A stretch of 64,000 nucleotides of DNA from an uncultured Acetobacteraceae bacterium (GTDB taxonomy: Bacteria > Pseudomonadota > Alphaproteobacteria > Acetobacterales > Acetobacteraceae), in NCBI GenBank assembly GCA_903895595.1, contig CAITUP010000091.1, forward strand, positions 124,001-188,000, given 5' to 3'. Shown piece by piece: positions 1 through 24,233 of this stretch; the stretch's first letter is position 1; the number at the start of each line of letters is the position of its first letter. Both the position numbers and the translations under genes were made by a program. The notes beneath the pieces are model-generated. The model had not been told where the DNA came from and ran no database searches. It saw only the letters and a list, made by a program, of their open reading frames with translations.

Positions 1-58
1 CGGCGACCCAGGCCAAGGGTCCGGCGGCGGCAAGAAGCGTGCGGCGGATGGGGGTCAT
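1..58 (-). CDS. N-terminal fragment of an exported protein (signal peptide only)
   Basis: Only 19 codons are inside the window, reading MTPIRRTLLAAAGPLAWVA and running off the left edge. An arginine pair, then a hydrophobic stretch rich in Ala and Leu, is a typical Sec or Tat signal peptide of a periplasmic protein, for example a solute-binding protein. An AGGG stretch lies about 8 bases before the ATG. The gene is co-directional with and downstream of the giant repeat gene, separated by a palindromic repeat. The mature protein is outside the window, so no function can be given. Confidence 0.55.
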   Translation of the reverse strand, partial: MTPIRRTLLAAAGPLAWVA

Positions 59-9100: not shown

Positions 9101-12100
9101 CCAGCGCCAGCAGGTTGCCGCTGTCGGCGACGACGTGCGCCGCGGTGTCGGACACGTTCACGGGCGAGCCGGCCAGCACCGCCACCAAGGTATGCAGTCC
9201 GGCCGCGGCATCGGCCGAGACCGCGCCCGTATCGGTGGGCGTCACCGATGCCAGATGCGCGCCCAGGCTCAGGAGACCGGCGACGTTCGCGTCGATGTTG
9301 GCGATGCTGTCGGTCACCGCGGCTTCGATCGCGAGCGACGTCAGCGCGGCACCGTTGGCGACAACGTTGGCGGCGGTGTCCGCCATGGTCAGGGTAAAGC
9401 CGCTGTTGTTGTAGTGGGACCCGAGGCCCGCGAGGAGGGTCGCCTCGGCGCCGGTCACCGAACGGCCGGCCGTGAGGATGTAGAACGGCGCGACGCTGCC
9501 CCAGTCGTGGGCGGCCGCCGTGACCAGATTGGCGGCGGTGTCGGTGACATCGATGACGCTTGCCAGCGCCACGCCGCCGGCATTCGCCGCGTCGGACAGG
9601 TGCGCGAAGGTATCCGCGACGACCAGATGGTTGCTGCCGGAGAAGGTCAGTTCGGAGGCGTTGGCCAGCGGCACCAGTTCCTCGGCTTGGGCAGCGGTGA
9701 GGCTGCTGGAGGAAATGATGCGCGCGGCGCTCGCCACGGTCAGGATCGCGGTGGCGTGGTCGGCGATGGCATCGGGGCTGTCGGCGACGACCAATGCGGC
9801 GGTGCCGCGGGTAAAGTTGGCGATGCCGGCGAGCGTATCGACCGTGGTGGTGTCGATGACGGAATCCCCGGCCAGCACCACGGACGCGGCGTTGGTCAGC
9901 AGTGGGGCGCTGGCGTTGGCCACGATATGCGCGACGCTGTCGGTCACGTCGTAGCTGGTGGCGACGGACTGCCAGCCGCCGGTGTTCAGATGCGCGAAGG
10001 TGTCGCTGACGACGATGGTGGCGCCGGTGTTGGAGAAGGCGTTCAGCGCCGCCAGACCTTGGGCCTGCGCCACGGTCAGGGTGACCGATGCGCCGGGGCT
10101 CAGGGTTTCACCGGTCGCGATGGCCTGCGCCGCGCCGGACAGCGCCGACAGGTTGGCGACCGTATCGACGATGGTTAATGTCGCTCCACCTGTGCGGGAG
10201 AAGTTCGGCAGGGCCGCCAGGGCCTCGGCGGTCGCGGCGTTGACGGTGGCGCTGGCGTTCAACACTTCGCCGCTGGCGAGACGGGTTTCCAGCGTGTTCA
10301 ATGTCGCGAGGTGTTCGGCGGTGTCGGCCACGGTCAAAGTATGGCCGTGCAGGGAGAAACGGGTGCCGAGTTCGGTCAGGCCCAGCAGGGTGGCGACATC
10401 GACGGTTTCCGATGCGACCAAAGCGAGGGTGCCGGTTTTGGCGTCGATGTCGCTGCTCAGTCCCAGCAGGGACGCGGCGGTGCCTTCGATGGTCAGGACA
10501 TGGCCACCGGTATTGAAGTCCGGATTGCCGAACAGCAGCGTGGCCTGGCTGGCGGAGGCGGTGGCGTCGCCGGACAGCGTCAGGACGGAGGCCAGCGCGA
10601 TTCCGGCCGCGTTGCCGCCGCTCAGCAGATTGGCCGGTGTGTCGGCGACGGTCAGGACGTTGTCGCCCATCAGCGCGCCGATGGCGGCGAGATGGTTGGC
10701 TTGCGCGGCGGTCAGGGTCGCATCGCCGATCAGATCGATTTCGGTTGGCACCGCGCCCGCGTTGACGGTGTAGGCGGCGAGGTGGCGGCCGGAGTCCATC
10801 ACGGTCAAAGCGTGGCCATTGAGGACGAAATGCGCGAACTCGGGCAGCAGGGCCAGGGTGTTCATCTGCGCCACGGTCGCGGTCGCGTCCTCCGACAGGC
10901 CGATGGCGGTGGCCTGCAGGATGGCGTTGTTGTGCGGCAGGCTCGCGGACCCGAGGCGCAGCAGATGGGTGAGCGAATCGGCGATGGCCAGGGCGGCGGT
11001 GCCGTTGGTCTGGAAGTTGATCAGCCCGATCAGGGATTCGGCCGCGGCGACGGACAGGGATGCGGCGACGCTGAGCTGGACACGATCCGCCAGCGCGATC
11101 CCGGCGGCGTTGGCCGGCAGCGCGAGGGAGGCAGCGGTGTCGGACACGGTGACGATGTTGGCGCCCTTGGCAAACCCGGCGATTCCGCTCAGTGCGGTGG
11201 CCTGCGCGGCGGAGATGGTCGCGTTGCCGGACAGGGTGACGGCGGCGGCGAGTGCCAGCCCGGCGGTGTCGGCGGGATTGAGTAGATTGGCGGCGGTGTC
11301 GCTGACAGTCAGCGTGTGGCCGCCGAGGATCAGGCGGCCTCCAAGCGCGGACAATTCCTCGGCCTGGGCAGCGGTGACGGTGGCGTCGCCGGTCAGGGCG
11401 ATGGTGGTCGCGACCAGCTCCCCGGCCCAGTCGTCGGGCAGAGGCCCGCTACCGGTGACATGCAGCAGGTTGGCGACGCTGTCGGAGATGGCGATATGCG
11501 CCGTGCCGGTCCCGAAGCCGGGCAGAGTCGTCAGGGATTCCGCCTGATCGGCTGTCAGGGTCGCGTTGGCGCGCAAAATGGCCGCGGTCGCGGGCGAAAT
11601 GCCGCCACTGACCAGGGTCAGGAGGTTCGCGGCGGTGTCCGACACCGTGAGCACATGGCCGTCGGTGCTAAAGTTCGGCAGCGCTTGCAGGGCCTGCAGG
11701 CGGGCGACGGACACGACGCTGTCGTCCGCGAGATCGATGGCGATGGCCAACGCGGCGGTGCCGGCGTCCAGCGTTGCCAGGGCCTTGGCGCTGTCGGCGA
11801 TGGTGATCGTATGCGTCCCGGCGGTGAACCCGGCGATCGTGTGCAGCGCGGTAGCCTGCCACGCCGCGACGGTCACGTTCGCATCGATGGTCACGGCGGT
11901 CGCGACCGCCAGCCCGGCCGCGTTGGCGGGCGCCAGCAGGTTGGCGACGCTGTCGGACACGGTCATCCCGGGTCCGGCGGAGAAATTCGGCAGGGACGCC
12001 AGGGTTTCCGCCGTCGCGGCGGACACGGTGGCGGCGGAGGTGAGCGCATAACCGGTGATTTGGCTGGCGATGCTGCTCCAATTGCCGCCGGCGGCGAGGT

Positions 12101-15100
12101 GCGCGGCGGTGTCGGCGATGGTCAGCATGTGGCCGCCATTGCTGAAACGGCCACCGAGCAGATCGAGAAGAGTGGCTTGGGCGGTGGCGATGGTGGCGTC
12201 GGCGGTGAGCGAAATGCTGCTGGCCAGCAGTTCCCCGGCCAAGTCGGCGGGGGCGATGCCGGAGGCGACCCGCACCAGGTTCGCGGCGGTGTCGGCGATG
12301 CTAAGACCGCTGCCCGTGAAGTGCGGCAGGGTGCTGAGCGTTTCCGCCTGATCGGCGGTCACCGTCGCCGGGGCGGCCAGGACGGTGCTGTCGATCGCGA
12401 TGGTGCCGCGGGTGAGCGTCAACAGATTCGCGGCGGTATCCGCGACGGTCAGCGACGCGCCGTTCTTGCTGAAGTTCGGTAGCGCGGCCAGCAGCGCCAG
12501 TTGCGCGACGCTGACGATGCCGTTGCCGGCCATGTCGATGGCGAAGGCCGTCGCGGCGGTGCCGGCGTCGAGCAATGTCAGCGGGACCGCGCCATCGACG
12601 ATGGTCAGATGGTGGGTGCCGGCGGTGAAGCCGGAAATCCCGTGCAGCCCGATGGCTTGGACCGCGTTGACCGTAGCATCGTTGTTCGGCGTCACCGAGG
12701 ACGCCGCCGCCAGCCCCGCCGCGTTGGCGGGGGCCAGCAGATTGGCGACGCTGTCGGACACGCTGTAGCCGGCCCCGGCGGAGAAGTGCGGCAATGTGGC
12801 GATGGCCTCGGCCATGCCGGCGGTCAGGGTCCAGGGCGCGCCCGTGGCGGTCAGCGTCGCCCCGCTCGCCAGCGCCAGCGCGCCGGTCGGCGCTGCCAGC
12901 AGCGCGGTGGGTGTGTCCGATACGGTCAGCACGTGCGCGCCGGTCGCGAATCCCGGCAGCGCGGCCAAGGCCTGCATCGACGAGGCCGAGACGGTCGCGT
13001 CCGCCGACAGCGTGGCGTGGCTCGCGCCTTGCGCGGCGAGCAGCGCCGAACCGGGGGAGGCGGCGGCGAACATCGCCTCCAGCAGCACCAGATTGGCGGC
13101 GGTATCCACGACCGCGATCGGGCCGGAGAACACGAGATTCGGCAGCTGGGTCAGGGCGACGAGCTGCGCCTCGGTCAGCGTGAAGCCGGCGGCGTTGAGG
13201 CCTGTCAGCGGCACAATTTGTTCCTGCGCCGCCAGCGCCAGGGCGCCGCTGGTCAGGGTCAGGAGACCGGCCGGCGTGTCGGCGACGGTCAGCGGATTGG
13301 CGTCGGCCGCGATCCCCGGCAGCGCGGCGAGCGCGTTGGCGGTGGTAGCACTGACGGTGACTGGGGCGAGCAGGCCGACGCTGCCGGCGATCGACAGGCC
13401 GGGCGCGACGCCCGACGCCAGCAGCCCGGCGGGCGTGTCGAGGACCGCCAGCACGTGGCCGCCCAGGCCGAAATTCGCCATATGCGCCAGCGTGTTGGCG
13501 ATGGCGGCGGATACCGTGGCGTCGGCGGACAGTACTGGCACGACATGGGTCGGCAGCGATCCGGTCGCGGCATTGGCGATCGTGGGCGCCAGGGCGGTCA
13601 AAGCGGCGGCGGTGTCGGTGACGGTGATGGCGTTGACGAAGCCGGCGACCGACAGGTTGCTCAGTCCAAGCAGGATGGAGAACTGGGCGGCGGAGATCGT
13701 GTAATCGGCGGCGTTGCCGCTGGTGCGGGCGACCAGCGCCTCGGTGCCGGCCAATGCCGCGACCGGCAGTCCCATCGCCGCGAGATGCGCGGGGGTATCG
13801 GCGACCGTCACCGCCTGGCCGTTGGCGGAGAAGCCGTGCAGCGCCAACAGCGCGCCGGCCTGAGCAACGGTGACCGTCGCGGGCTGCGACAATGCGACGG
13901 TGCTCGCCACCGTCTCGGCGGCGGCGGCGCCCGAGGCCAACAGGTTCGCGGCCGTATCGGACAGCCCGATCCGGTGCGTGCCGGCGGAGAAGCCGGTGAA
14001 GCCCAGCAGGGCTTGCAGGCCGGCGACGTTCAGCGTGGCGTCGGCCGTCAGTTGCACCTGGGCGTGCCACCCATTCAGCACGGATGCCGACAGGCCGGCC
14101 AACGCGGCGGCGGTGTCCTGCACCGTCAGCCCCATGCCGTTGGGGGAGAAGACCGATCCCAGGCCGATCAGAGTCGCCGTCTGGGCGGCGGTGACGACGG
14201 ACGACACCGACAACGTCACGCTGCCCGCCAACGCGATCCCGGCAGCGTTGGCCGTGCCGGCGATGTTGGCGCCATCATCGCTGACGGTCACGGTGTGGCC
14301 GTTCAGGCTGAAATTGACGAACCCGACCGCGGTCTTGATCGCCGCCAAAGCGGTCGCCCCGGCAGCCGTCACGGTTTCGGAATCCGTCACGCCCACCGCC
14401 GTCGCGTAAGTGCCGATCAACCCGGCATGCGGGATCATCGCCGCCATCGTGTCGCTGACGGTCAAGGTCGCGCCGCTCGCCAGCGAGAAATTGGGCAGGA
14501 TCGCCAGCGAGATCAGCTGCGCGACGGACGCCGTCGTGGCGCCCATCAACTGGGCGCTCGCCTGCACGATCGTGACGCCGAGGGTGCCGGCCGAACTCAA
14601 GTCGGCGAAATGCAAAGTGGGGTCGAGCAGTTGCGCCTTGGTGCCGGCGAACACCCCCGAGCTGACGGTGATGCCGGTGAATCCGCGGCCGAAAACCTGG
14701 GAAGCGAACGCGGTCAGATTGGCCCCGGTATCGGTGACCGACAGGCCGGAGGTGGCGCCGGTATAGGCCGAGGCCTGCACCGCCGACAGAACGGACCCGG
14801 TGAAGGTGCCGCCATCGGTCGCGGTCAGGGTCACCGGGCCATCGCCCTGCAGCGTCGCCAAAGCGGAGGCCGCGGCGGTCAGATGCTGGGCGGTGTCGGC
14901 GATATGCAGCGTGGTCGCCGAACCGGCTGGGATCAGTGTCAGGTGGGCGGACAGCGCCAGCAGCGCCTGCGCCTGCGCCGCGGTGTAGGTGCCGCCATCG
15001 ATCTGCGCGACCACGCGCGCCGTCCCGGTTGGCAGGCTGGACGCGGCCAGCAGATCGGCGACGGTATTCAGCACGACGATCGGCCCGGCCACGGCCAGTT

Positions 15101-16178
15101 CCGCGCCGGACATGGCGTTCAGCGCGACGAGCGAATCCTCGATTGTCAGCACCGCGCCGCCGGTGGGGACGAAGGAAGGTAAGGCCACCAGCGCTGCCAG
15201 TTGCGCGACGCTGACCGTGGCGCTGGACGTCAGATTGACCCCGACCGCCATCCCGGCGAGCGATTGCGGCAGCGCCAGCAGATTGGCGGCGATGTCGGCC
15301 AGGATGAACCCGCCGCCGGGGGCCACGGAGAAGTGCGGCAAGGACGACGCGGCCAGCAATGTGGCGGCGGAAATCGTCTCGAAATCCGCCATCGCGGCGC
15401 TGGCGCCAGGGAAGTTTTGCGCGAAGGTCGCGATGCCGCCGGCATGGGCCAGCAGCGTCGTCAGGCTGTCGCCGATCTGCAGGGCAACACCGGGCATCGC
15501 GGCGTAGCCCGCGAGAGTCGCGGCAATGGCGGAATCGGTCATCGCGGCGAACGGGCCGGTGACCGTCAACGTCGTACCGTTCGCGACCGCGAAGCTCGGC
15601 AGGTGGAACAGCGTCGCGGCAGTGGAAATATCGACGGAGGAATCGACCGACACGGTAAACGCCTTAAGCGCCGCCTTGGTTTCCTGCGGCGTTAAGGCCA
15701 GCAGATTGGCGGCGGAGTCCGCCAGGGTGACGATCTGGCCCGGCAGCACCGAAAACCCGGGCAAGGTCTCCAAAGAAATCAACTGCGCCAGCGTCAGGCT
15801 GGCACTGGCGGACAGAACGGCGCTGTTGGCATGCGACGCGAAAATCGTGCCGGCGACCGACAGCAGGCCCTCGGCGTGGTCGTAAAACGCATAAACAGTG
15901 CCCAGCGCGACGCCGGCGGCGAAGTCCGGGTCGGTCAGGTTGGCCGCCGTGTCGCGCACGATCAAACGGTTGCCGCCAGTGCTGAAACGGCTGCCCAGGC
16001 CGGCGAGCTGCGTGGCCGCGGCAGCCCAGATCGCGCCATTGCCGTTCATCGTGAACTGGCTGACCCGCGCCACCAGCGCCGTATTCGACAGCGCGGCGGC
16101 GATGTTGGCCGGCGTGTCGGCGATGATGATACCCGTGTCGCTGGAAGCACGCGCTTGTGCGATCGTCATGGTTGCCAT
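123..16178 (-). CDS. giant tandem-repeat (beta-strand repeat) surface/secreted protein, 5351 aa
   Basis: One uninterrupted frame encodes about 5350 residues built almost entirely from degenerate repeats around the motif (V/S)DTAANL or SDTAAHIQADL. The N-terminal and C-terminal thirds have units with LPGFSxGxHxLTVSDTAANLL-like cores. The middle (about residues 2560-4160) has about 19 more regular units of about 89 residues containing VDDGAGS. The composition is Ala/Thr/Ser/Val/Gly-rich and I saw no cysteine. There is no Sec signal peptide (start MATMTIAQARASSDTG) and no RTX nonapeptides, so the export route is unknown; type I secretion is possible. I chose the ATG at 16178 over the track start at 16328 because AAGGAAAA sits about 10 bases upstream and the extra 50 codons look like untranslated leader. 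Function is unrecognised; a large adhesin or matrix protein is the best inference. Confidence 0.85.
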   Translation of the reverse strand: MATMTIAQARASSDTGIIIADTPANIAAALSNTALVARVSQFTMNGNGAIWAAAATQLAGLGSRFSTGGNRLIVRDTAANLTDPDFAAGVALGTVYAFYDHAEGLLSVAGTIFASHANSAVLSASASLTLAQLISLETLPGFSVLPGQIVTLADSAANLLALTPQETKAALKAFTVSVDSSVDISTAATLFHLPSFAVANGTTLTVTGPFAAMTDSAIAATLAGYAAMPGVALQIGDSLTTLLAHAGGIATFAQNFPGASAAMADFETISAATLLAASSLPHFSVAPGGGFILADIAANLLALPQSLAGMAVGVNLTSSATVSVAQLAALVALPSFVPTGGAVLTIEDSLVALNAMSGAELAVAGPIVVLNTVADLLAASSLPTGTARVVAQIDGGTYTAAQAQALLALSAHLTLIPAGSATTLHIADTAQHLTAAASALATLQGDGPVTLTATDGGTFTGSVLSAVQASAYTGATSGLSVTDTGANLTAFASQVFGRGFTGITVSSGVFAGTKAQLLDPTLHFADLSSAGTLGVTIVQASAQLMGATTASVAQLISLAILPNFSLASGATLTVSDTMAAMIPHAGLIGTYATAVGVTDSETVTAAGATALAAIKTAVGFVNFSLNGHTVTVSDDGANIAGTANAAGIALAGSVTLSVSSVVTAAQTATLIGLGSVFSPNGMGLTVQDTAAALAGLSASVLNGWHAQVQLTADATLNVAGLQALLGFTGFSAGTHRIGLSDTAANLLASGAAAAETVASTVALSQPATVTVAQAGALLALHGFSANGQAVTVADTPAHLAAMGLPVAALAGTEALVARTSGNAADYTISAAQFSILLGLSNLSVAGFVNAITVTDTAAALTALAPTIANAATGSLPTHVVPVLSADATVSAAIANTLAHMANFGLGGHVLAVLDTPAGLLASGVAPGLSIAGSVGLLAPVTVSATTANALAALPGIAADANPLTVADTPAGLLTLTSGALALAAQEQIVPLTGLNAAGFTLTEAQLVALTQLPNLVFSGPIAVVDTAANLVLLEAMFAAASPGSALLAAQGASHATLSADATVSASSMQALAALPGFATGAHVLTVSDTPTALLAAPTGALALASGATLTATGAPWTLTAGMAEAIATLPHFSAGAGYSVSDSVANLLAPANAAGLAAASSVTPNNDATVNAVQAIGLHGISGFTAGTHHLTIVDGAVPLTLLDAGTAATAFAIDMAGNGIVSVAQLALLAALPNFSKNGASLTVADTAANLLTLTRGTIAIDSTVLAAPATVTADQAETLSTLPHFTGSGLSIADTAANLVRVASGIAPADLAGELLASSISLTADATIATAQATLLDLLGGRFSNGGHMLTIADTAAHLAAGGNWSSIASQITGYALTSAATVSAATAETLASLPNFSAGPGMTVSDSVANLLAPANAAGLAVATAVTIDANVTVAAWQATALHTIAGFTAGTHTITIADSAKALATLDAGTAALAIAIDLADDSVVSVARLQALQALPNFSTDGHVLTVSDTAANLLTLVSGGISPATAAILRANATLTADQAESLTTLPGFGTGTAHIAISDSVANLLHVTGSGPLPDDWAGELVATTIALTGDATVTAAQAEELSALGGRLILGGHTLTVSDTAANLLNPADTAGLALAAAVTLSGNATISAAQATALSGIAGFAKGANIVTVSDTAASLALPANAAGIALADRVQLSVAASLSVAAAESLIGLINFQTNGTAALAIADSLTHLLRLGSASLPHNNAILQATAIGLSEDATATVAQMNTLALLPEFAHFVLNGHALTVMDSGRHLAAYTVNAGAVPTEIDLIGDATLTAAQANHLAAIGALMGDNVLTVADTPANLLSGGNAAGIALASVLTLSGDATASASQATLLFGNPDFNTGGHVLTIEGTAASLLGLSSDIDAKTGTLALVASETVDVATLLGLTELGTRFSLHGHTLTVADTAEHLATLNTLETRLASGEVLNASATVNAATAEALAALPNFSRTGGATLTIVDTVANLSALSGAAQAIATGETLSPGASVTLTVAQAQGLAALNAFSNTGATIVVSDTFAHLNTGGWQSVATSYDVTDSVAHIVANASAPLLTNAASVVLAGDSVIDTTTVDTLAGIANFTRGTAALVVADSPDAIADHATAILTVASAARIISSSSLTAAQAEELVPLANASELTFSGSNHLVVADTFAHLSDAANAGGVALASVIDVTDTAANLVTAAAHDWGSVAPFYILTAGRSVTGAEATLLAGLGSHYNNSGFTLTMADTAANVVANGAALTSLAIEAAVTDSIANIDANVAGLLSLGAHLASVTPTDTGAVSADAAAGLHTLVAVLAGSPVNVSDTAAHVVADSGNLLALGAHLGTITLTDTSPVAVAVATGLLPLVADLAGGTSIDVSDTGAAIAAQASGLAALGSDLGTVALSDGTATDAATAAALVPIQAHLGGGVQLSITDTAAHIDTASAGLATMLGHSRISGIVAANETVAHVLAHGSALVSLGATATISDTAAHVNAALDGLEAIHAVVTSIALTDGTTPTIAVSVAQLGSDHAVLTAITSPYHLTVRDTAAHIQADLTAGSSVILGDLADLTGIVVSDSGTVALTEAHIRAAGVDDGAGSAMALFSGGTLVVTGVAAADAGIVAGLGVPPASMTIADTAANIQADLTSGSSELVAERALISSITATGGGAISLTEAQATAAHVDDGAGSVFAKLTGATLTVTGVPVADIATVAALPVAPTAIAVSDTAAHVQADLIAGGSRIIGHQSAVASIDVNDSGTIAFTVAQIEAAGVETALAKTTGETLVVTGAAVSDLSTIAGLAVVPSSIAVTDTAAHIQADLASGSSAILAERSLISGITVNPAGTVTLTQAQVLTAGVDDGAGSALALMTGETLVVTHVDVAHIATVLGLGVPPASIAVSDTAAHIQADLGSGSSVLVGNIGSVTGITVNDSGTISLTVAQIEAAGVDDGAGSVLAETTGGTIVVTGAAVSDIATLAGLGVVPHAIDLSDSAADVDADLTSGASDILAHIATIGAIALTDAGTPALGLTLAQLAASHAALALIDTPYSLAISDTAAHLQADLTSGSSALLAHRTGISSIAVSDAGNIALTQTQVLAAHMDDGAGSVFSVLSGGGLIVTGVTVAETGTVVGLPFAPTHIALSDTAAHIQADLIAGTSAILTNLATIAGIAVSDAGTIHLTEAQIEAAGVDDGAGSALSLLTGGTIDVTGVPVADIATVLALGVPPDTIHVSDTAADLQADLTGGSSELLAHRSVIAGIVVSDSGTITLTVAQAEAAHVDSGAGSILSKMTGETLAVTGMAVSDIATLEALSVPPSRLAISDTAAHIQADLASGASKLVANVGTISGIAVSDSGTVTLTQTQALAAHVDDGAGSVFALLSGGDLVVTHVTTAEIGTILALPFAPTTIAVSDTAAHIQADLAGGSSAILANLADIAGIAVSPAGTIVLTEAQLQAAGVDDGAGSAFAKMTGETLAVTGVPIADIGTMLALGVPPDSIAVSDTAANIEADLTGGSSVLVAQRSAISAIAANDSGTITLTVAQIEAAHVDDGAGSVFAKMTGETLHVTGALVSDIGTLGALSVAPTGLSISDTAAHIQADLTSGSSQLAANLSLIGAITVSDAGTITLTATQLLAAHVDDGPASVLALTSGGSLAVTHVTAAQLPTIGALTVAPDSFAVADTAAHLQADLVSGSPHILAYLGAISAIAVSPAGTITLTEAQVLGASVDDFGGSALAKMTGLTLHVTGVAVADIGTILALGVPPSSIAVSDTAAHIQADLTGGSSAILANLSSIGGIAVSFGGAIELTIGQAETSHIDDGAGSVFSKLSGGTLTVTGVAVSDIDTVATLPVAPTTIYLSDTAAHIQADLASGSSHIVTHLSLIGGIAVSDSGTITLTETQLRAIHIDDAGGSALAQMTGETLAVTHVLAADVAIVAALDVPPTEIGIIDTAAHIQADLTSGSSGILANLSAITGIAVSPAGTITLTAAQAAIAGMDDGAGSALALMTGATLHVTGVTAALLPSIAGLFVTPASIAMSDTAAHIQADLAAGGASAILANLGLIGGIAVSPAGTITLTDAQVQFAGVDDGAGSALSLMTGETLVVTGVPVADIATIMGLGVVPAHITVVDSEANLIADLTGGSSVIAANASAITGVTPTDATLAVADATDLYNALLGVATLNESGLTITGTAADLLTAHTGVPAMLTAAHAVTMTGNPTGLTAAQATTLSSILGGHLGGGQTLGVSDTAAHLLDSANAAGIALATTVQLSVGILSSASYVTLLADLHGFTAGAAIVVADTVAHLLDPANADGLAAASTVEVASDVTVTAAQLTSLSGIANFADGGHAITVADTAAAIAALGQPALGFSSLAAVTDTSANVQAALNNLQSVVTGHSHALSIALSDGVAHTPSITVTAATYGADAATIDTITTAGAVRVIGTAAQLAALSSSLAADTVVGEVDVTDSAANILSNLTALNGIGAKFSSATITDATLNASYVSSLLTIPNLHASSLTIADTGAQLAATIQSGGASALTFLNAHTVQLTANSVVTASQALSLESLTALQKGSYTLVAWDTASHLTDSIDGYLAAVSAGIIDGVYLKTVGGTATVSASTAAALFSIPRFSKNNPDSSTNTLTVQDTAAHLESAFAALNAHKTAVSGIVVSASTTVTDAVYGDLLTLGATASFGASLTVRDTAANIIANAPSQVSGSPSLTPTTWSLSGSATVTIAGAAFLGGLTGFSPGASTLTIGANGTATVTQANQLGSLGATLHLGGHTVGVAGSVATVSGLSGAAKPIVVTAITDTFANIATLTIASGLLTGTLTITDSASPTVAQANAFLALLLAGGNGGIPIANVSFGGHTEAITDTLANIQTMTGSAGWTSNAAVHADFTLVAADTVAHLIDPANTAALEALAGTTLSSNQTTTAANAESLVNLSSSIHFSLGGHTVTIQDTAANILNPSNADGEAIATAWNLSGNDTVAAADAETLLTSAKFSVNGHTLTISDSSDNLLDGVLSGDISGFSGVSHVHVQLAGAETLDAQTAAALVALPGFTNNGDLSIQDSSDYLLNAANHTAEVDATSVTLVGDETVSVATAVALAAVPNFTLGSATLHLATNDYANAAAVTALADFGSGFDANGHTITLTQDALSLTPTEYAAVQSDNIVLNGHALSALATGIGVTSGGGTVHVSGNGVDGATLNVYASSGASLSQTAGVSAAFTADAAEGSIGNGVVVTETVGASAATSESAPIIALEQTVLTDAATADSATFAGSGSVQVGVGQYVNLYTTANAPVAPANPVLVYDATAHTLSLDITGHAPLVLVTLGSATHPASLDPSEIVVKHFT
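3690..8505 (-). repeat. in-gene tandem array, about 19 units of about 267 bp
   Basis: Within the giant gene, about 19 successive units of roughly 89 codons each carry DTAAHIQADL, a serine-rich GSS segment, an ITLTxAQ segment, VDDGAGS and a VTGV-like segment. Unit length varies: one lacks the DDGAGS stretch and one is clearly shortened. The units are closer to each other than to the flanking repeats, which suggests this block expanded most recently. Counts were made by eye from the translation. Confidence 0.75.
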
Positions 16179-16418
16179 GGTGCGGTTTTCCTTGCCTGGC
16201 CTGAGAAACTTGGCTCCGGCCCCCGAGGGGTTGCTCGCCGGTCGACAGGAAGTGTGGCAGCCAAAGGTTGACGAAAGGTTTACGCGGAACCCGAAAATGG
16301 CCTTTTTTTCGCTTATTTTCGTGAACAAAAAAGGAACTTCTTAACGAATGGTTAACAGCCCGCCGATGCCCGGACGGGTGGGGTATGACGCGCGCGGACG
16401 CTGGGCTATAGCGACCGC
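16179..16418. promoter_or_regulatory. divergent upstream region of the giant gene and the dehydratase gene
   Basis: This 240 bp gap is markedly AT-richer than its surroundings (runs of T and A near 16305-16330) and must hold the promoters of both divergent genes. Reading toward the giant gene, two adjacent 11-mers, CGTAAACCTTT and CGTCAACCTTT, form an imperfect direct repeat just upstream of its leader. A CtrA-type site (separate entry) lies on the dehydratase side. I could not assign convincing -35/-10 boxes. Confidence 0.5.
16341..16356 (+). promoter_or_regulatory. CtrA-type box TTAA-N7-TTAAC
   Basis: TTAACGAATGGTTAAC matches the alphaproteobacterial CtrA consensus TTAA-N7-TTAAC exactly. 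It is 63 bases upstream of the dehydratase start and 163 bases upstream of the giant gene start, in an AT-rich divergent promoter region. CtrA is known to regulate motility, pili and surface structures in alphaproteobacteria. Use by CtrA here is inferred from the match alone. Confidence 0.5.
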
Positions 16419-18341
16419 ATGCCCGCGGCACGCTCGCTGATTCGTATTGCCGTCAACGTCGCTCTGGATGCGCTCCTGGCGGCTATCGCGGTTCCAGTGG
16501 CGCGGTGGATCGCGGATCCGGCCGGCCACGCCTTCGCGCCGTTCTGGCTGATTCCGGCTGGGGCGGCGGCGCTTTTGCTCGCCGGTTTGCCATTCCGCCT
16601 GTCCCGCCAGTACTGGCGCTTCGCCGGCATCGAAGATCTTCTCACGGTCGCCGCCAGCAGCGCGGCCGGCTCGGTGTTGTTCGCCGCGATCACGATGGCC
16701 GGCGGCGCGGTGTCCGCCAACCCGGCCTTCCCCGTCGTCCACGCCTTCACACTGCTGGTGTTTCTCGGCGCCCCCCGCGTGTTCTACCGCCGCATGCGGC
16801 TGCGTGCCGCAGGGCATCCCCCGGAAGCCGACGCGGCCTCTATTCTTCTGGTAGGCGAAGGCGAGGACGCCGATCTGTTCCTGCGCGCCATGGCCCAGGA
16901 CCGCCGTCGCGCCTTTCAGGTGGAGGGGCTGCTGGCCCCGACCGCCCGCCTGACCGGACGGCGCATCCAGGGGTTCCCGATCCTGGGCTCCGTCGCCGAT
17001 GCCGGGGCGGTGCTGGAACAGTTGCGCGGCGAGGGACGGATGCCGGACATGCTGGTTATCGCATCCCCCGATCCGACGGGCGCACTGCTGACCGCCGTGC
17101 TGGCGGAGGCCGACCGCTTCGGGCTGCGGGTGCGACGGGCACCGCGGCCGACGGCGCTGGACAGCAACACCGGGGCGGACAAGGACCAGCGGCTGGAATT
17201 GAAGCCGGTCGCCATCGAGGATCTGCTGAACCGCGCCCAGGTACCGTTGGACCGCGACGGCATGGCGCGGCTGATCCAGGGTCGGCGCGTTATCGTCACC
17301 GGGGCCGGCGGCACGATCGGCAGCGAGCTGGCGCGTCAGGTCGCGGCGTTCGGACCGGCGTCTCTCGTGCTGATCGACAATGGCGAATTCGCGCTGTGGC
17401 AGATCGACCTGGAACTGGCGGAGACGCATCCCGGTGTGGCTCGCCGCACCCTGATCGCCGACATCCGCGACGAAGCCCGGATTCGCGCGGTGTTCGAGGA
17501 TGTGCGGCCGGAGCTGCTGTTCCACGCCGCCGCGCTGAAGCACGTGCCGATGGTGGAGGCGAACCCGCTCGAAGGCTTGCTCACCAACGCCGCCGGCACC
17601 CGCCACGTCGCCGACGCAGCGCGCGCGGTTGGGACTTTGGCGATGGTGCTGATCTCCACCGACAAAGCCGTAAACCCCACCAGCGTCATGGGCGCGTCGA
17701 AGCGGGTGGCGGAAATGTACTGCCAGGGGCTGGATATTCAGGCGCGGCAGACCGGCTCCGGCATGCGTTGCATCACCGTGCGGTTTGGCAACGTGCTCGG
17801 CTCCACCGGGTCGGTCGTGCCTTTGTTCCAGCGCCAGTTGGCGCGGGGCGGGCCGCTGACCGTGACCCACCCGGACATGCAGCGTTATTTCATGACGGTG
17901 CGCGAGGCCGTCGGTCTGGTCCTGCAGGCCAGCGTGCTGCGGGTGGGCGGCGCGGAACTGCCTTTGTCCAACGATGGCGGCATTTTCGTCCTCGACATGG
18001 GCGAACCGGTGAAGATCGTCGATCTCGCGCGCCAGATGATCCGACTGGCCGGGCTGCGGCCGGAGGAAGACGTGGAGATACGCTTCACCGGCCTGCGCCC
18101 CGGCGAGAAATTGTTCGAGGAACTGTTCCACGGCAAGGAACCGCCGGTTCCCACGGGGTATCAGGGCTTGTTGATGGCGTCGCCGCGGACCGCCGATCCG
18201 GCGATTGTCGGGCGTTCTTTGGATGAGATCGCCTCGGCCTGCCGAGCGGGGCAGCCTCGGTTGGCTTTGGCGTTGCTGGGGCGGCTGATACCGGAGTTCG
18301 AACATAACGCGGATGGTTCGTCCGGCGAGGTTCGGGCGTGA
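16419..18341 (+). CDS. membrane-anchored NDP-sugar 4,6-dehydratase/epimerase (WbpM/CapD family)
   Basis: This 640-residue protein has the WbpM/CapD layout. Four hydrophobic segments lie in about residues 6-118, followed by a first Rossmann-like region (about 140-260) and an SDR-type catalytic domain (about 285-560). TGAGGTIG near residue 293 is the NAD-binding glycine motif. SVMGASK at 422-428 gives the SMK-type triad in which Met replaces the usual Tyr, as in WbpM. The family makes 4-keto-6-deoxy sugars from UDP-GlcNAc-type substrates for surface glycans. The downstream aminotransferase fits the next step, a 4-amino sugar. The start is the ATG in the track; its ribosome binding site is weak. 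Confidence 0.88.
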   Translation: MPAARSLIRIAVNVALDALLAAIAVPVARWIADPAGHAFAPFWLIPAGAAALLLAGLPFRLSRQYWRFAGIEDLLTVAASSAAGSVLFAAITMAGGAVSANPAFPVVHAFTLLVFLGAPRVFYRRMRLRAAGHPPEADAASILLVGEGEDADLFLRAMAQDRRRAFQVEGLLAPTARLTGRRIQGFPILGSVADAGAVLEQLRGEGRMPDMLVIASPDPTGALLTAVLAEADRFGLRVRRAPRPTALDSNTGADKDQRLELKPVAIEDLLNRAQVPLDRDGMARLIQGRRVIVTGAGGTIGSELARQVAAFGPASLVLIDNGEFALWQIDLELAETHPGVARRTLIADIRDEARIRAVFEDVRPELLFHAAALKHVPMVEANPLEGLLTNAAGTRHVADAARAVGTLAMVLISTDKAVNPTSVMGASKRVAEMYCQGLDIQARQTGSGMRCITVRFGNVLGSTGSVVPLFQRQLARGGPLTVTHPDMQRYFMTVREAVGLVLQASVLRVGGAELPLSNDGGIFVLDMGEPVKIVDLARQMIRLAGLRPEEDVEIRFTGLRPGEKLFEELFHGKEPPVPTGYQGLLMASPRTADPAIVGRSLDEIASACRAGQPRLALALLGRLIPEFEHNADGSSGEVRA

Positions 18342-18354
18342 TTTTTTCACCCGC

Positions 18355-18431
18355 CCCGTCATGGTCGGGCATGACCCGTCCACCTTTATCCCATTGGCCT
18401 GACGTGGCCGGGTCAAGCCCGGCCATGACGG
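18355..18431 (+). repeat. REP-like element, paired hairpins with linker
   Basis: Two palindromes of the GTCATGGTCGGG family are joined by the conserved linker TTATCCCATTGGCCTGA. Both hairpins carry base changes relative to the consensus (for example GGCCGGG arms in the second). The element fills most of the gap between the dehydratase and aminotransferase genes. Confidence 0.85.
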
Positions 18432-18453
18432 CGTATTGTCCCACGAGGTCCCC

Positions 18454-19590
18454 ATGACCGCCACACCGATTCCGTTCCTCGACCTCAAGGCCCAGCAGGC
18501 ACGCATCGCCGCGGACCTGCGCCGCCGGCTGGACGCGGTGCTGGAGCATTGCCAGTTCGTCATGGGCCCGGAGGTCGCGGAGCTTGAAGCGACACTCGCG
18601 AAGTTCTGTGGCGCGAAGCACTGCGTCGCGGTCAGCTCCGGCACCGACGCGCTACAGATCGCGCTGATGGCCGAGGGCGTGGGGCGCGGCGATGCCGTGT
18701 TCCTGCCGGCCTTTACCTATACCGCCACGGCGGAGGTGCCGTTGGTGCTCGGCGCCACGCCGGTGTTCGTGGATGTCGATCCCCGGACCTTCCAGATCGA
18801 TCCGGCACATCTGGAACAGCGCATCGCCGAGGTGCGGGCTGCTGGGTTGTTGAAGCCTCGGGTACTGATCGGGGTCGACCTGTTCGGCCAACCCGCCGAT
18901 TGGCCGGCCTTGTCGGCGATCGCGGCGCGCGAGGGCTTGTTCACGCTCGACGACCTCGCCCAAAGCTTCGGCGGGTCGCTGCACGGCAAGATGCTGGGGT
19001 CGCAGGCGGATGCGACGGCGACGAGCTTCTTTCCGTCCAAACCCCTGGGCGCCTACGGCGACGGCGGCGCGATGTTCACCGAAAGCGACGAACGCGCGGC
19101 CCTGTTCCGCAGCCTGCGCACGCACGGCGAAGGGCCGACCCGCTACGAGGTGCTGCGTACCGGCATGAACGGGCGTTTGGATTCCATGCAGGCGGCGGTG
19201 CTGCTGTCCAAGCTGACCGTATTCCCCGAGGAACTGGCCGCTCGTGAAAAGATCGCGCGGTATTATGATTCGCGGCTTGGCAATGCGGTGACGATCCCGG
19301 CGCGCGTGCCGGACAGCACCAGCGCCTGGGCGATCTACGCGGTGCTGCTGAAAGACGGCGCGACGCGGGACGCGGTGCAGGCGGCGCTGCGGGCCGATGG
19401 GGTGCCGACGGCGATTTATTATCCGCGGCCGCTGCATCTACAGCCGGCGTACCGGGATGCGCACGATGGGGCACCGCTGCCGGTGTCGGAAGATTTGGCG
19501 ACGCGGATCATGGCGCTGCCGATCCATCCCGATCTGGACGATGCGGCGGTGGAGCGGATTTGCGATGCGGTGATCCGGGCGGTTGGTTAG
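18454..19590 (+). CDS. DegT/DnrJ/EryC1/StrS family sugar aminotransferase
   Basis: A PLP-dependent fold type I aminotransferase of 378 residues acting on nucleotide-linked keto sugars. It opens with PFLDLKAQQ, has the SSGTDAL cofactor-binding segment, DDLAQSFGG, and the lysine that forms the PLP Schiff base in FFPSKPLG (K196). DegT-family enzymes such as PglE and WbpE follow a 4,6-dehydratase or 3-ketosugar enzyme in amino-sugar synthesis, matching the gene upstream. I start at the ATG at 18454, preceded by ACGAGGT, rather than the track's TTG at 18436. The exact sugar product cannot be read from the sequence. Confidence 0.9.
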   Translation: MTATPIPFLDLKAQQARIAADLRRRLDAVLEHCQFVMGPEVAELEATLAKFCGAKHCVAVSSGTDALQIALMAEGVGRGDAVFLPAFTYTATAEVPLVLGATPVFVDVDPRTFQIDPAHLEQRIAEVRAAGLLKPRVLIGVDLFGQPADWPALSAIAAREGLFTLDDLAQSFGGSLHGKMLGSQADATATSFFPSKPLGAYGDGGAMFTESDERAALFRSLRTHGEGPTRYEVLRTGMNGRLDSMQAAVLLSKLTVFPEELAAREKIARYYDSRLGNAVTIPARVPDSTSAWAIYAVLLKDGATRDAVQAALRADGVPTAIYYPRPLHLQPAYRDAHDGAPLPVSEDLATRIMALPIHPDLDDAAVERICDAVIRAVG

Positions 19591-20096: not shown

Positions 20097-23000
20097 ATGC
20101 CCCTCACGATCTCCACGACCTACGCCAGCCTCGTCAGCCTGACGAGTACGGCGCAAAATCCCACGACGATCACCAATTCCGCGCGGCTGAAAGCGGGCTT
20201 GAAGGTTTCGGTCAACGGCCTGACGGTTACGAACGCTGGCACCGTCGAGCCCAATCCAACGCTGGGATCCGGCGCCGGCATCTACCTCGCCGGCACTAGC
20301 GATATCGTCATCAACCAGAGCGGCGGGACCATCCTCGGCAACCGGGGGATTGTCGGCTCGGGCGCGCCGATTAGCGCATCGGACCTGTCGACCGTCGTCA
20401 ACTTCGGGATCATCGCGGGGAACGCGACCTCTGTTTCCGACGGCATGCTGATGTTCGAAGGGGGCGTTGTCACGAACCAAAGCAGCGGCACGGTCAGCGG
20501 CTTCTACGGCATCGCCTTTTCCGAGCAGGTGCAGCCCGTGCAGCTCCCGGAGATCGTCGTGAACGGCGGACTGATCGCCGGCGATGCGACCAAGGGGGTC
20601 GGGATCGCATTGGGGGGCGGCGGTACGGTCACGAACCGAAGCGGAGGGACCATCAGCGGCCTAAAAGCACTCAGTGCCCAAGGTGGGCCGTCGGGCAACC
20701 CGAGCACCGTCGTAAATGCCGGAATCATTGCAGGTAATGCGTCGAGTACGACCTTCTGGAGCGTGGGGGTGGGGCTTAATGCCGGCGGCTTTATTACCAA
20801 CCAGAGCAGCGGGCGGATCTCCGGCGACCGCGGCATTTACATCGCTGGGGGTACCATCCTCAACGCGGGCAGCATTGTAGGATACTCGTCGGTCAGCATC
20901 AGCTCCAGCAAGCTCGGCATCGCGCTGTACGGGGTGTCGGTCGTAACCAACCAAAGCGGCGGCTATATCGGCGGTGCGATTGCGATTACCGGGGTATCTG
21001 GCACCGAGACGGTCGTGAACGCCGGCACCATCGCGGGGAGCAACGCCACCACCAGCGGCCAGGGCGTTCAGCTCAATGCGGGCACGCTTACCAACCAAAG
21101 CGGCGGCACGATCGAAGGCTTCATCGCGGTCACGGCCTTCGCGGCCGCGACCATCTTCAATGCTGGCAGCATCGCGGGGAATTTAACCGCCGCATCCGGG
21201 CGGGGGATCTACCTGAGCACCACCGGAAGCGTCGCGAACCTGAGCGGCGGCTGGATCGGCGGGAACGACGCGGTTCGGTTCAACAGCACCGCGACTTTCA
21301 CGAACGCCGGAACCATCGCTGGCAATGCCACACTGGGCACGGGCATCGGCCTCTTTTTATTCCGAGGCGGATCTGCAACAAATAAGAGCGGCGCCATCAT
21401 AACCGGCTACCAGGCCGTTGTGTCGTCCTACGCGCCGGTCTTCAATTACGGCACTATCGCGGGGAACACGACCAGGGGTATCGGCGCGCAGGTCGGGGGA
21501 GGGCTGACCAACGAAAGCATCGGCATAATCACGGGTAAAGTGGGGGTAAGCGGGGCCGGACAGGCGATTGTCGCGAACGCCGGATCGATTACAGGGAATA
21601 CGACGAACGGAACCGGTATCGTACTCACGGGGGGTACGGTCACGAATCAACTCTCGGGTTCTGTCAGCGGCTTTACCGGCATTGGCGGCGGGACCAACGT
21701 CGTCGGCGGGGTCGTCGTCGTGAACGCCGGAGATATTACGGGAAGCATGAACGGCGGCTTCGGCATAAATAACGTCTACAATATTACCAATCAAAGCAGC
21801 GGCACGATCGCCGGCTACGATGGCGTCAAGTACGGGAATGTCCTGAACGCCGGCCTCATTACCGGGAACACGGTCGCCGGCGCGGGCGTTGCAATCTCCG
21901 GTCAGCGCGTCACCAACCAGAGCAGTGGCACGATCGCGGGTTTTTACGGCGCCACGCTGTCGGGACAAGGGAGCATCGTGAACGCCGGCCGAATCGCCGG
22001 AAACACGGCCGGCGGCACTGGCATTGTGCTTGGCCATGGCGGACTGGTCACAAACCAAAGCAACGGTTCGATCGACGGCTACAATGGCATCCACGGCTCG
22101 CAATTCTATCGTAATTTTACCTATTACGGATCTCAACACATCACCATCCGTCAGCCGACCATCGCGAACGCCGGGCGCATTACAGCGAACATGACCGCCG
22201 GCACGGGTATTATACTCATTCAAGGTGGCTCGGTCGTCAACCAAAGCGGTGGCTCGATTAGCGGCTTCGTTGGCATCGATGGCGGAAAATTCTCCTACAC
22301 CAGCGCCTCCAGGACCAACGCCATCTACAACTACTCCAGCCACAGCTACACTTACGTCTTCTACCCGGGCACGCTCGTTGTCTTGCGGCCGAGCCTAACG
22401 AACGCGGGTTCCATCATCGGGAACATGACTACCGGAACTGGCGTTGTTCTCACCGGCGGTGGCACGATCGTCAACCAAAGCGGCGGGCTGATCGCCGGCT
22501 ATAGGGGGATCGCCGCCAGCGGCGGTCCCACGACCGTCGTGAATGCCGGCAGCATCGCCGGAGCGTCCAGCGCGATCGCACTTACCGGCGGTTACGCGAA
22601 TCGCTTGATCAGGTCTCCGGGCGCCGCGATCGCCGGGACCGTGTCGGGCGGCAACACCTTCGGTTCGACCGTCCAAAGCACGCTGGAGCTCGTTTCCGCC
22701 GCGTCCGCCGGCAGCATTTCCGGTCTCGGCACGCGGTATATCGATTTCGCGCAAACAACCATCGACTCCGGCGCCACCTGGAGCTTCACGGGGACCAACC
22801 TACTCGGCGCCGGCTATACACTGACCAACGCCGGGACCCTGATCAACACCGGGACGCTGACGTTGTTCGATGCGACCCTGACAGGGGGCGGCATTGTCAA
22901 CAACGGTGGCATTATCCTCGACCCCAGCACGATGGTCGTCGCCAGCCTCACCGGCACCGGCAGCGTCACCATCGCCTCCGGCAGCACGCTGGAGGTGCAG

Positions 23001-24233
23001 GGGACCGTATCGTCTGGTGAAACGATCGTGTTTGGCGGCGCCGGAGCATATTTGCATATCGACACGCCCAGCAGTTTCGCCGGCCGCATACTCGATTTCG
23101 CGGGATCGGAAACGATCGACCTGAAAGGCGTGTCGCCGGGATCGGTGTCCTACACAATCGGGTCCGGTGTGCTGCAGGAAGGCGGCGGCACTATCGCACT
23201 ATCGACGACACCGGAAGTCCCGCTGTCCGCCACGGCCAGCGCCGACGGCAGCAGTGTCGCGACGCTCTGCTTTTGTGTGGATACATATATTCGCACCCCG
23301 TACGGCGACCGGCGGGTTCAGGACCTGCAGGTTGGCGACATCGTCAGCACCTTCGGTGGCGGTGTTCGTCCCATCGTCTGGATCGGCCTCGGCAAGGTGC
23401 TGGCGACCCCCGGTCGGCGTGGCGCCGCGACACCGGCGATCGTGCGCAAAGGCGCGCTCGCCCCCAACGTGCCGGGGCGGGATCTGCATTTGACCAAGGG
23501 CCATGCGCTTTATCTCGACGATGTTCTGATACCGGTGGAGTTTCTGATCAACCACCGTTCCATCGTTTGGGACGATCGTGCACGGGAAGTGGAACTTTAC
23601 CATATCGAACTCGATGCCCACGACGTACTGATCGCCGACGGCGCACCGGCCGAAAGCTACCGCGACGACGGCAATCGATGGTTATTCCGGAATTCCAACA
23701 GCGGCTGGAACCTGCCGCCGCTGACACATTTTGCCCCTGTCCTGACTGGCGGCCCTGTCGTGGACGCCGCTTGGCGCCGTATTCTGGACCGGGCGGGCCC
23801 GCGCCCGGGGCTACCGCTGACCGAGGACCCCGATCTGCATCTGTCGGTCAATGGAAGACGGATCGACGCGGTCTCCTGCGCGGCGGGCGCTTACGCTTTC
23901 GAACTTCCAACCGGGGTATCGGAGGTGCGCATCGTATCCCGAGCCGGCAGTCCCGCCGAACTCGGGCTGGCCCGCGATCCTCGCCGGCTTGGTGTCGCGT
24001 TACGCTGGATGGTGCTGCGCCAAGGGACCATCACCCGATCGTTGGATATCGCAAGCGAGTTGCTGCACCAGGGCGTTCATGCGTTCGAAGCCGACAACAA
24101 ATTCCGTTGGACGGACGGGGACGCGCTATTACCGGCAGGATGGTTTGCCGGATTGAGCGGGGCATTTTCACTCGCCCTGCGCATAACGGCGATGGCAAAT
24201 TACCCGCTTGAGGGGACGCGCATCGCGGCTTGA
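20097..24233 (+). CDS. beta-repeat surface protein with C-terminal Hint (Hint_2) domain, 1378 aa
   Basis: About 15 repeats of roughly 45-60 residues fill residues 55-840. The core is NAGTIAGN...GTGIxLxGG then TNQSSGTIxG, which suggests a right-handed beta-helix. A Hint module starts at C1058 (CFCVDTYIRTPYGDRRVQDL), where the cysteine aligns with the intein/hedgehog nucleophile; LTKGHALY gives the TxxH-type block. About 180 residues follow. No Sec signal peptide is visible. Units 13 and 14 carry aromatic-rich inserts. Hint domains in other proteins cleave or splice the chain autocatalytically; here that is inferred. GGAAG precedes the ATG. Base composition looks somewhat less GC-rich than its neighbours. 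Likely a surface or shed protein. Confidence 0.85.
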   Translation: MPLTISTTYASLVSLTSTAQNPTTITNSARLKAGLKVSVNGLTVTNAGTVEPNPTLGSGAGIYLAGTSDIVINQSGGTILGNRGIVGSGAPISASDLSTVVNFGIIAGNATSVSDGMLMFEGGVVTNQSSGTVSGFYGIAFSEQVQPVQLPEIVVNGGLIAGDATKGVGIALGGGGTVTNRSGGTISGLKALSAQGGPSGNPSTVVNAGIIAGNASSTTFWSVGVGLNAGGFITNQSSGRISGDRGIYIAGGTILNAGSIVGYSSVSISSSKLGIALYGVSVVTNQSGGYIGGAIAITGVSGTETVVNAGTIAGSNATTSGQGVQLNAGTLTNQSGGTIEGFIAVTAFAAATIFNAGSIAGNLTAASGRGIYLSTTGSVANLSGGWIGGNDAVRFNSTATFTNAGTIAGNATLGTGIGLFLFRGGSATNKSGAIITGYQAVVSSYAPVFNYGTIAGNTTRGIGAQVGGGLTNESIGIITGKVGVSGAGQAIVANAGSITGNTTNGTGIVLTGGTVTNQLSGSVSGFTGIGGGTNVVGGVVVVNAGDITGSMNGGFGINNVYNITNQSSGTIAGYDGVKYGNVLNAGLITGNTVAGAGVAISGQRVTNQSSGTIAGFYGATLSGQGSIVNAGRIAGNTAGGTGIVLGHGGLVTNQSNGSIDGYNGIHGSQFYRNFTYYGSQHITIRQPTIANAGRITANMTAGTGIILIQGGSVVNQSGGSISGFVGIDGGKFSYTSASRTNAIYNYSSHSYTYVFYPGTLVVLRPSLTNAGSIIGNMTTGTGVVLTGGGTIVNQSGGLIAGYRGIAASGGPTTVVNAGSIAGASSAIALTGGYANRLIRSPGAAIAGTVSGGNTFGSTVQSTLELVSAASAGSISGLGTRYIDFAQTTIDSGATWSFTGTNLLGAGYTLTNAGTLINTGTLTLFDATLTGGGIVNNGGIILDPSTMVVASLTGTGSVTIASGSTLEVQGTVSSGETIVFGGAGAYLHIDTPSSFAGRILDFAGSETIDLKGVSPGSVSYTIGSGVLQEGGGTIALSTTPEVPLSATASADGSSVATLCFCVDTYIRTPYGDRRVQDLQVGDIVSTFGGGVRPIVWIGLGKVLATPGRRGAATPAIVRKGALAPNVPGRDLHLTKGHALYLDDVLIPVEFLINHRSIVWDDRAREVELYHIELDAHDVLIADGAPAESYRDDGNRWLFRNSNSGWNLPPLTHFAPVLTGGPVVDAAWRRILDRAGPRPGLPLTEDPDLHLSVNGRRIDAVSCAAGAYAFELPTGVSEVRIVSRAGSPAELGLARDPRRLGVALRWMVLRQGTITRSLDIASELLHQGVHAFEADNKFRWTDGDALLPAGWFAGLSGAFSLALRITAMANYPLEGTRIAA

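Follow-up and report, generated by a model that had tools for sequence, protein, structure and literature searches.

The last approximately 320 residues of a repeat protein from an uncultured Acetobacteraceae bacterium probably constitute a portable, self-processing C-terminal sorting module, which combines an autocatalytic Hint_2 domain with a dedicated β-sandwich C-terminal domain (CTD) in an arrangement resembling the Hog part of hedgehog proteins. The gene is located at positions 20097–24233 of a 64,000 nucleotide long stretch of DNA (assembly GCA_903895595.1, contig CAITUP010000091.1, positions 124,001 to 188,000 of the forward strand), which we refer to as the window. Our analysis has established the anatomy of the tail, its predicted fold, the invariance of its central residues, its modular fusion to unrelated passengers and the close pairing of its two domains. 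Judged from sequence, it resembles a tag that is used repeatedly, for processing or anchoring, on dozens of unrelated exported proteins, with up to about 40 exported proteins bearing it per genome of Acetobacteraceae, a family that includes vinegar, bee-gut and peat bacteria. If the tail cleaves, it would define a sorting system with a built-in catalyst and, if it ligates, it would be a bacterial counterpart to hedgehog lipidation and could readily serve as a tool for C-terminal protein modification. The Hint_2 family is already known and named. Neither the CTD nor its association with Hint_2 nor the use of both as a general tail was found in the libraries and the open-licence literature searched, and all three are thus apparently undescribed; no described function of Hint_2 tails was encountered within that literature, and a description outside of it is possible.

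Anatomy of the protein and its tail

The protein is encoded by a single open reading frame (ORF), which extends from an ATG at 20097 to a stop codon at 24231–24233. Residue conservation refers to 94 aligned copies of the tail that were picked by a motif at residues 1185–1193, where conservation is consequently biased and was not relied on.

20097..24233, + strand: gene encoding repeat passenger, Hint_2 and CTD (1378 amino acids; GGAAG ahead of the ATG start)
20097..23267, + strand: passenger, residues 1–1057, without Sec-like N-terminus and without Pfam match
~20232–22601, + strand: diverged NAG...TNQSSGTIxG β-repeats within the passenger, approximately residues 46–835
23268..23666, + strand: Hint_2 domain (PF13403), residues 1058–1190, assigned by profile match, with predicted fold of inteins and bacterial intein-like (BIL) domains
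23268..23270, + strand: codon of C1058, predicted nucleophile of an N–S acyl shift with L1057–C1058 as expected scissile bond; Cys in 94/94 copies
23493..23504, + strand: T1133-K-G-H1136, the TxxH motif of block B; T/S in 94/94 and H in 94/94 copies
23601..23621, + strand: H1169...H1175 in the block-F-like segment YHIELDAHDV; conserved in 94/94 and 93/94 copies
23652..23654, + strand: E1186 of the motif AES, at the position of the terminal His-Asn of inteins; 94/94 copies, biased by overlap with the search pattern
23667..24230, + strand: CTD, residues 1191–1378, with linker, helix and β-sandwich; conserved, no match in Pfam, NCBIfam or PDB
24225..24230, + strand: C-terminal Ala-Ala; AA or VA end in 75/94 copies versus 149/2247 (6.6%) control ORFs

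An original prediction made from the DNA alone had described fifteen repeat units leading into a Hint module with C1058 as nucleophile and a TxxH-like motif, and these assignments were confirmed. The passenger contains 16 NAG motifs and 12 copies of the strict core [TVIS]N[QRKEL]S[SG]G, compared to a mean of 0.09 and a maximum of 2 cores in residue shuffles of residues 1–860, so that about 15 units are a fair estimate and far above chance. For Tandem Repeats Finder, the units are too diverged at the nucleotide level. Hint_2 is the sole Pfam domain of the 1378-residue protein (E 3.9e-33, 115.3 bits versus a curated cut-off of 28.4), and searches of NCBIfam and PDB sequences with the whole protein as query gave no match. 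The profile match starts at C1058, the first cysteine of the sequence LCFC, in agreement with the initial numbering, and the TxxH-like motif corresponds to T1133-K-G-H1136.

Loss of the catalytic residues in orthologues had been named as an observation that would speak against self-cleavage. Instead, C1058, T/S1133, H1136 and H1169 are invariant in the 94 copies, which is informative because these residues lie outside the selecting motif, and C1060, as internal control, varies freely. The same residues are present in relatives from Rhizobium, Cupriavidus, Commensalibacter and Microvirga. Mean majority conservation in the 94 copies amounts to 0.23 in the 25 residues preceding Hint, versus 0.75 in Hint and 0.64 in the CTD. 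In an AlphaFold (AF2) model of both domains, with a mean predicted local distance difference test score (pLDDT) of 87.9, the Hint part most closely resembles BIL2 of Tetrahymena BUBL1 in a Foldseek search of the PDB (E 2e-5), followed by a Clostridium thermocellum BIL (2lwy) and the gp41-1 intein, with E-values between 2e-5 and 1e-4; model and matches together thus identify it as a predicted HINT fold. A profile search of PDB sequences returned marginal matches to block A of BILs and inteins and one evident chance match, and no reliable alignment to hedgehog.

The C-terminal His-Asn of inteins is absent and replaced by the sequence AES(Y), whose Glu is invariant in the 94 copies within the biased region. 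In inteins, block B contributes a Thr and a His to the reaction at the N-terminal scissile bond (PMC4031507). From this established mechanism, we infer that the expected reaction would be the formation of a thioester at L1057–C1058 and, because of the missing His-Asn, N-terminal cleavage rather than splicing.

The approximately 180 residues said to follow Hint are indeed there, with an exact count of 188. They do not, however, form an undefined tail but a distinct conserved domain that nearly always occurs with Hint_2 in the genome, and what had been overlooked is the conservation and wide distribution of the tail as a unit of two domains. Modelled alone, the CTD shows a helix and a β-sandwich (pLDDT 90.6), the term sandwich being our reading of the strand pattern in the model. 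Its comparison with PDB folds yielded a best E-value of 0.087 and no usable match, and hence no enzyme-like one, and its search against Pfam gave nothing at E 1 and no toxin match. The conserved -AA/-VA end, which in the 94 proteins comes after a variable stretch of low confidence, may serve as a signal for export or, once the tail is cleaved off, as its ClpXP-like degron.

Distribution of the tail and its passengers

The genome from which the window originates (G000) contains 21 Hint_2 loci, and in a profile search the CTD was detected behind 18 of them. Elsewhere in this genome the profile matches only four places, namely a stand-alone copy, a remnant and two fragments at contig ends. The stand-alone CTD-like domain (L142, G000:C163:8804-9229) resides in a 287-residue ORF without Hint_2. 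Two Hint_2-CTD genes (L040, G000:C80:6071-6941; L035, G000:C101:24326-25263) are split over two frames, either as pseudogenes or due to assembly indels. Within the genus, the CTD is found in 32 of 33 sampled genomes with up to 40 copies, and in other CTD-bearing genomes of a sample of the class Hint_2 is located directly ahead in 12/12 CTD hits. A single peptide pattern, scanned against 84,980 species genomes, identified 529 relatives, 80 of which were retrieved for study; named relatives belong to the Acetobacteraceae, such as Rhodopila and Acidisphaera. More distant Hint_2-CTD proteins, annotated merely as 'Hint domain-containing protein' or 'outer membrane protein', are encoded on plasmids of Acetobacter, Gluconobacter, Commensalibacter, Rhizobium, Microvirga and Cupriavidus. 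Some of these plasmids are very small, including one of 10.7 kb in Commensalibacter melissae (L181), where the gene is by far the largest, and one of 11 kb in A. pasteurianus (NC_021977.1), and their carriage of the gene suggests that it is mobile cargo.

The search of genomes for this architecture that the original prediction had proposed thus finds Hint_2-CTD on unrelated passengers across G000 and its relatives. These passengers encompass GH114 proteins, a GH113-like barrel, a β-helix, DUF4347 and an NF038122 metalloprotease, as well as ELWxxDGT repeats, the 'choice-of-anchor' GloVer repeats of TIGR03803 and AIDA/Ag43-type repeats devoid of a translocator barrel. The NCBI name 'choice-of-anchor' (TIGR03803) denotes proteins whose members bear differing C-terminal sorting tags.

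In its organization, the tail shares features with several described systems. Its Hint part is a clear member of PF13403, whose annotation is shared by the relatives from Acetobacter, Gluconobacter and Rhizobium, although this family covers Hint alone and the CTD and the architecture as portable tail are found in no library searched. With Hog, which combines Hint with a sterol or adduct recognition region, it has in common the C-terminal location of Hint, the first cysteine, the TxxH motif, the lack of a terminal His-Asn and a dedicated partner domain, and nematode Hog proteins likewise carry variable passengers on a conserved tail (PMC2362128). Conversely, the predicted β-sandwich shows no detectable relation to the sterol-recognition region, and the tail is bacterial and attached to many unrelated passengers per genome. 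With type B BILs it shares the predicted intein fold and a sequence without similarity to block G, its nearest PDB folds are BILs, and cleavage uncoupled from splicing would be expected (PMC4031507), but BILs are found in variable places, whereas Hint_2 here always follows its passenger and comes together with a single conserved CTD. In being a portable C-terminal unit that is attached to exported proteins of unrelated type, 'choice-of-anchor' families among them, it finally resembles PEP-CTERM, the C-terminal domain of type IX secretion (T9SS), LPXTG and other C-terminal sorting tags, from which it differs by the absence of a Sec signal and by a predicted catalytic domain of its own, which would take the place of a trans-acting sortase.

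Proposed processing and export, and alternative explanations

In the mechanism that we favor, the passenger would be synthesized without a Sec signal and exported via a C-terminal signal, most likely by a type I secretion system (T1SS). As the invariant residues suggest, C1058 together with T1133, H1136 and H1169 would convert the L1057–C1058 peptide bond into a thioester, whose attack by water or by an acceptor would either free the passenger from the Hint-CTD tail or join it to the acceptor. In this process, the CTD might provide the signal for export, bring the acceptor into position, or do both. We regard it as quite likely that self-cleavage occurs, and slightly favor passenger release over attachment. 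The original prediction, by which autocleavage would release or covalently attach the repeat region, is partly supported by our results. A more far-reaching version, which we consider doubtful, would have the CTD bind a glycan or lipid at the surface, to which Hint_2 would transfer the exported passenger from its thioester with C1058, thus covalently anchoring dozens of proteins per cell without sortase or Sec signal in a bacterial counterpart of hedgehog processing.

A role of the Hint domain in secretion, combined with the missing Sec signal, had already been considered. The start of the studied protein is not Sec-like, and among the passengers a Sec-like start was recognized in 0/92 cases, by a hydrophobicity heuristic that identified two positive controls. 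RTX repeats, a hallmark of type I secretion substrates, are absent from the studied protein and are located ahead of Hint_2 in 7/7 proteins sampled from another alphaproteobacterial family. Together with the exported nature of the passengers, these observations make the proposed part in secretion likelier, with the export route itself being conjectural; for T1SS we see the chances as evenly balanced. In the exoproteome of Ruegeria pomeroyi, an RTX protein with a Hint/intein region and no signal peptide was found outside the cell (PMC2953401), and PF13403 and RTX are both enriched in bloomers in a Rhodobacteraceae context (PMC12487129). The Ruegeria protein similarly combines Hint with a T1SS-type substrate but differs by its N-terminal putative intein with His-Asn and the lack of a CTD.

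Several observations weigh against a self-processing module exported in this way. C1058 is preceded by Gly in 0/94 copies and by L, I, V or P in 86/94, residues that often make the acyl shift slow, especially Pro. Some Hint_2 proteins of the family stop soon after Hint and thus lack the CTD, and in three loci it is replaced by approximately 110 residues followed by a GT4-type glycosyltransferase. The Sec test, as a heuristic, is not equivalent to SignalP. T1SS genes adjoin 0/98 other Hint_2 loci (1.58 Mb searched). Among 160 genomes of the family, HlyD is found in 123/125 with Hint_2 versus 32/35 without, which is not discriminating (p=0.07), and the single-contig genome G427 contains six Hint_2 genes and no HlyD over the cut-off. 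Finally, one Cupriavidus Hint_2-CTD gene is located among type II secretion genes.

The most serious alternative is a narrower form of the same proposal, which we hold to be possible yet not probable. Here, the CTD with its -AA/-VA end would act solely as C-terminal secretion signal and Hint_2 would hydrolyse itself off outside the cell, setting the passenger free with no acceptor involved. The strong enrichment of this end over control ORFs, the lack of Sec-like starts, the RTX-Hint_2 fusions and the occurrence of free enzymes such as GH114 and the metalloprotease among the passengers would all agree with it. However, ordinary T1SS substrates manage with uncleaved signals, which would leave a whole conserved β-sandwich unexplained, freely diffusing repeat adhesins would make little sense, and CTD-less Hint_2 proteins exist in the same family.

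The glycosyltransferase fusions (L023, G000:C14:38520-38927, - strand; L024, G000:C69; L161) combine a β-repeat passenger, Hint_2, the 110-residue segment and the GT4-type domain in one polypeptide. The underlying search pattern for the start of Hint demands Cys, and these variant loci were not used as evidence for its conservation. They suggest that Hint_2 takes exchangeable C-terminal partners, either none, the CTD or a glycosyltransferase, and Hint could in these fusions part an exported protein from the enzyme that modifies it. Extended to the whole family, Hint_2 would serve as scaffold carrying partners that act on the passenger in cis before it cuts itself free. AIDA-type repeats (TIGR04415), which are found among the passengers, are known targets of O-glycosylation, but the CTD has no enzyme-like match and the fusions are few, and we find this explanation unlikely.

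Still somewhat less credit is given to a catalytically silent Hint with a purely structural or binding role in a surface protein. The unfavorable residue before C1058, a leucine in the studied protein, would fit such a role, whereas without catalysis one would hardly expect Cys, Thr/Ser and both His residues to be invariant in 94 copies and in relatives from other orders and from a betaproteobacterium.

Two further readings are very improbable. As in polymorphic systems of the Rhs/MafB type, where PT-HINT or BIL domains precede the toxin, Hint might free the directly following 188 residues as toxin, but these belong to one conserved rather than variable family with 18 loci and hundreds of relatives, lack a toxin match, and the genome contains no PT-HINT (PF07591). 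A splicing intein or type A BIL ligating the passenger to the CTD would share the fold and the residues of blocks A and B, but at the end of the domain neither His-Asn nor a downstream arrangement with a Cys/Ser/Thr nucleophile is present, and Glu is found instead. The tail belongs to Hint_2 and is not an intein, a type A BIL or a PT-HINT domain, whereas its assignment to Hog or to type B BILs would be tentative.

Genomic neighborhood

Further genes in and next to the window are listed below, the two upstream neighbors purely as context.

16419..18341, + strand: upstream neighbor, NDP-sugar dehydratase/epimerase of polysaccharide biosynthesis (PF02719)
18436..19590, + strand: upstream neighbor, DegT/DnrJ (sugar) aminotransferase
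123..16328, - strand: giant repeat protein (5401-residue ORF) with units of VSDTAAHIQADL type, head of a type I secretion operon
1..58, - strand: 5' end of prtD, T1SS ABC transporter (TIGR01842, 584 bits; G000:C91:122382-124058)
G000:C91:121101-122369: hlyD, following prtD outside the window

Polysaccharide and nucleotide-sugar genes are found beside Hint_2-CTD genes at 16419–19590 of the window and in L182 (plasmid of Microvirga sp. VF16), an anecdotal observation without control.

Linkage to a T1SS operon was dropped as evidence for the export route, as no T1SS gene was detected in the 98 loci. In the studied genome, the operon of giant adhesin, PrtD and HlyD is located 4–20 kb to the left of the Hint_2-CTD gene, with the exporter genes at the edge of the window, at a distance of about 20 kb. 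The gene of the giant repeat protein is directly followed by prtD and hlyD (G000:C91:121101-124058), as in a T1SS operon with a giant substrate. PrtD and HlyD, just beyond the edge of the window, are candidates for the exporter of the studied protein, and this PrtD is the sole copy in G000 over the cut-off of TIGR01842.

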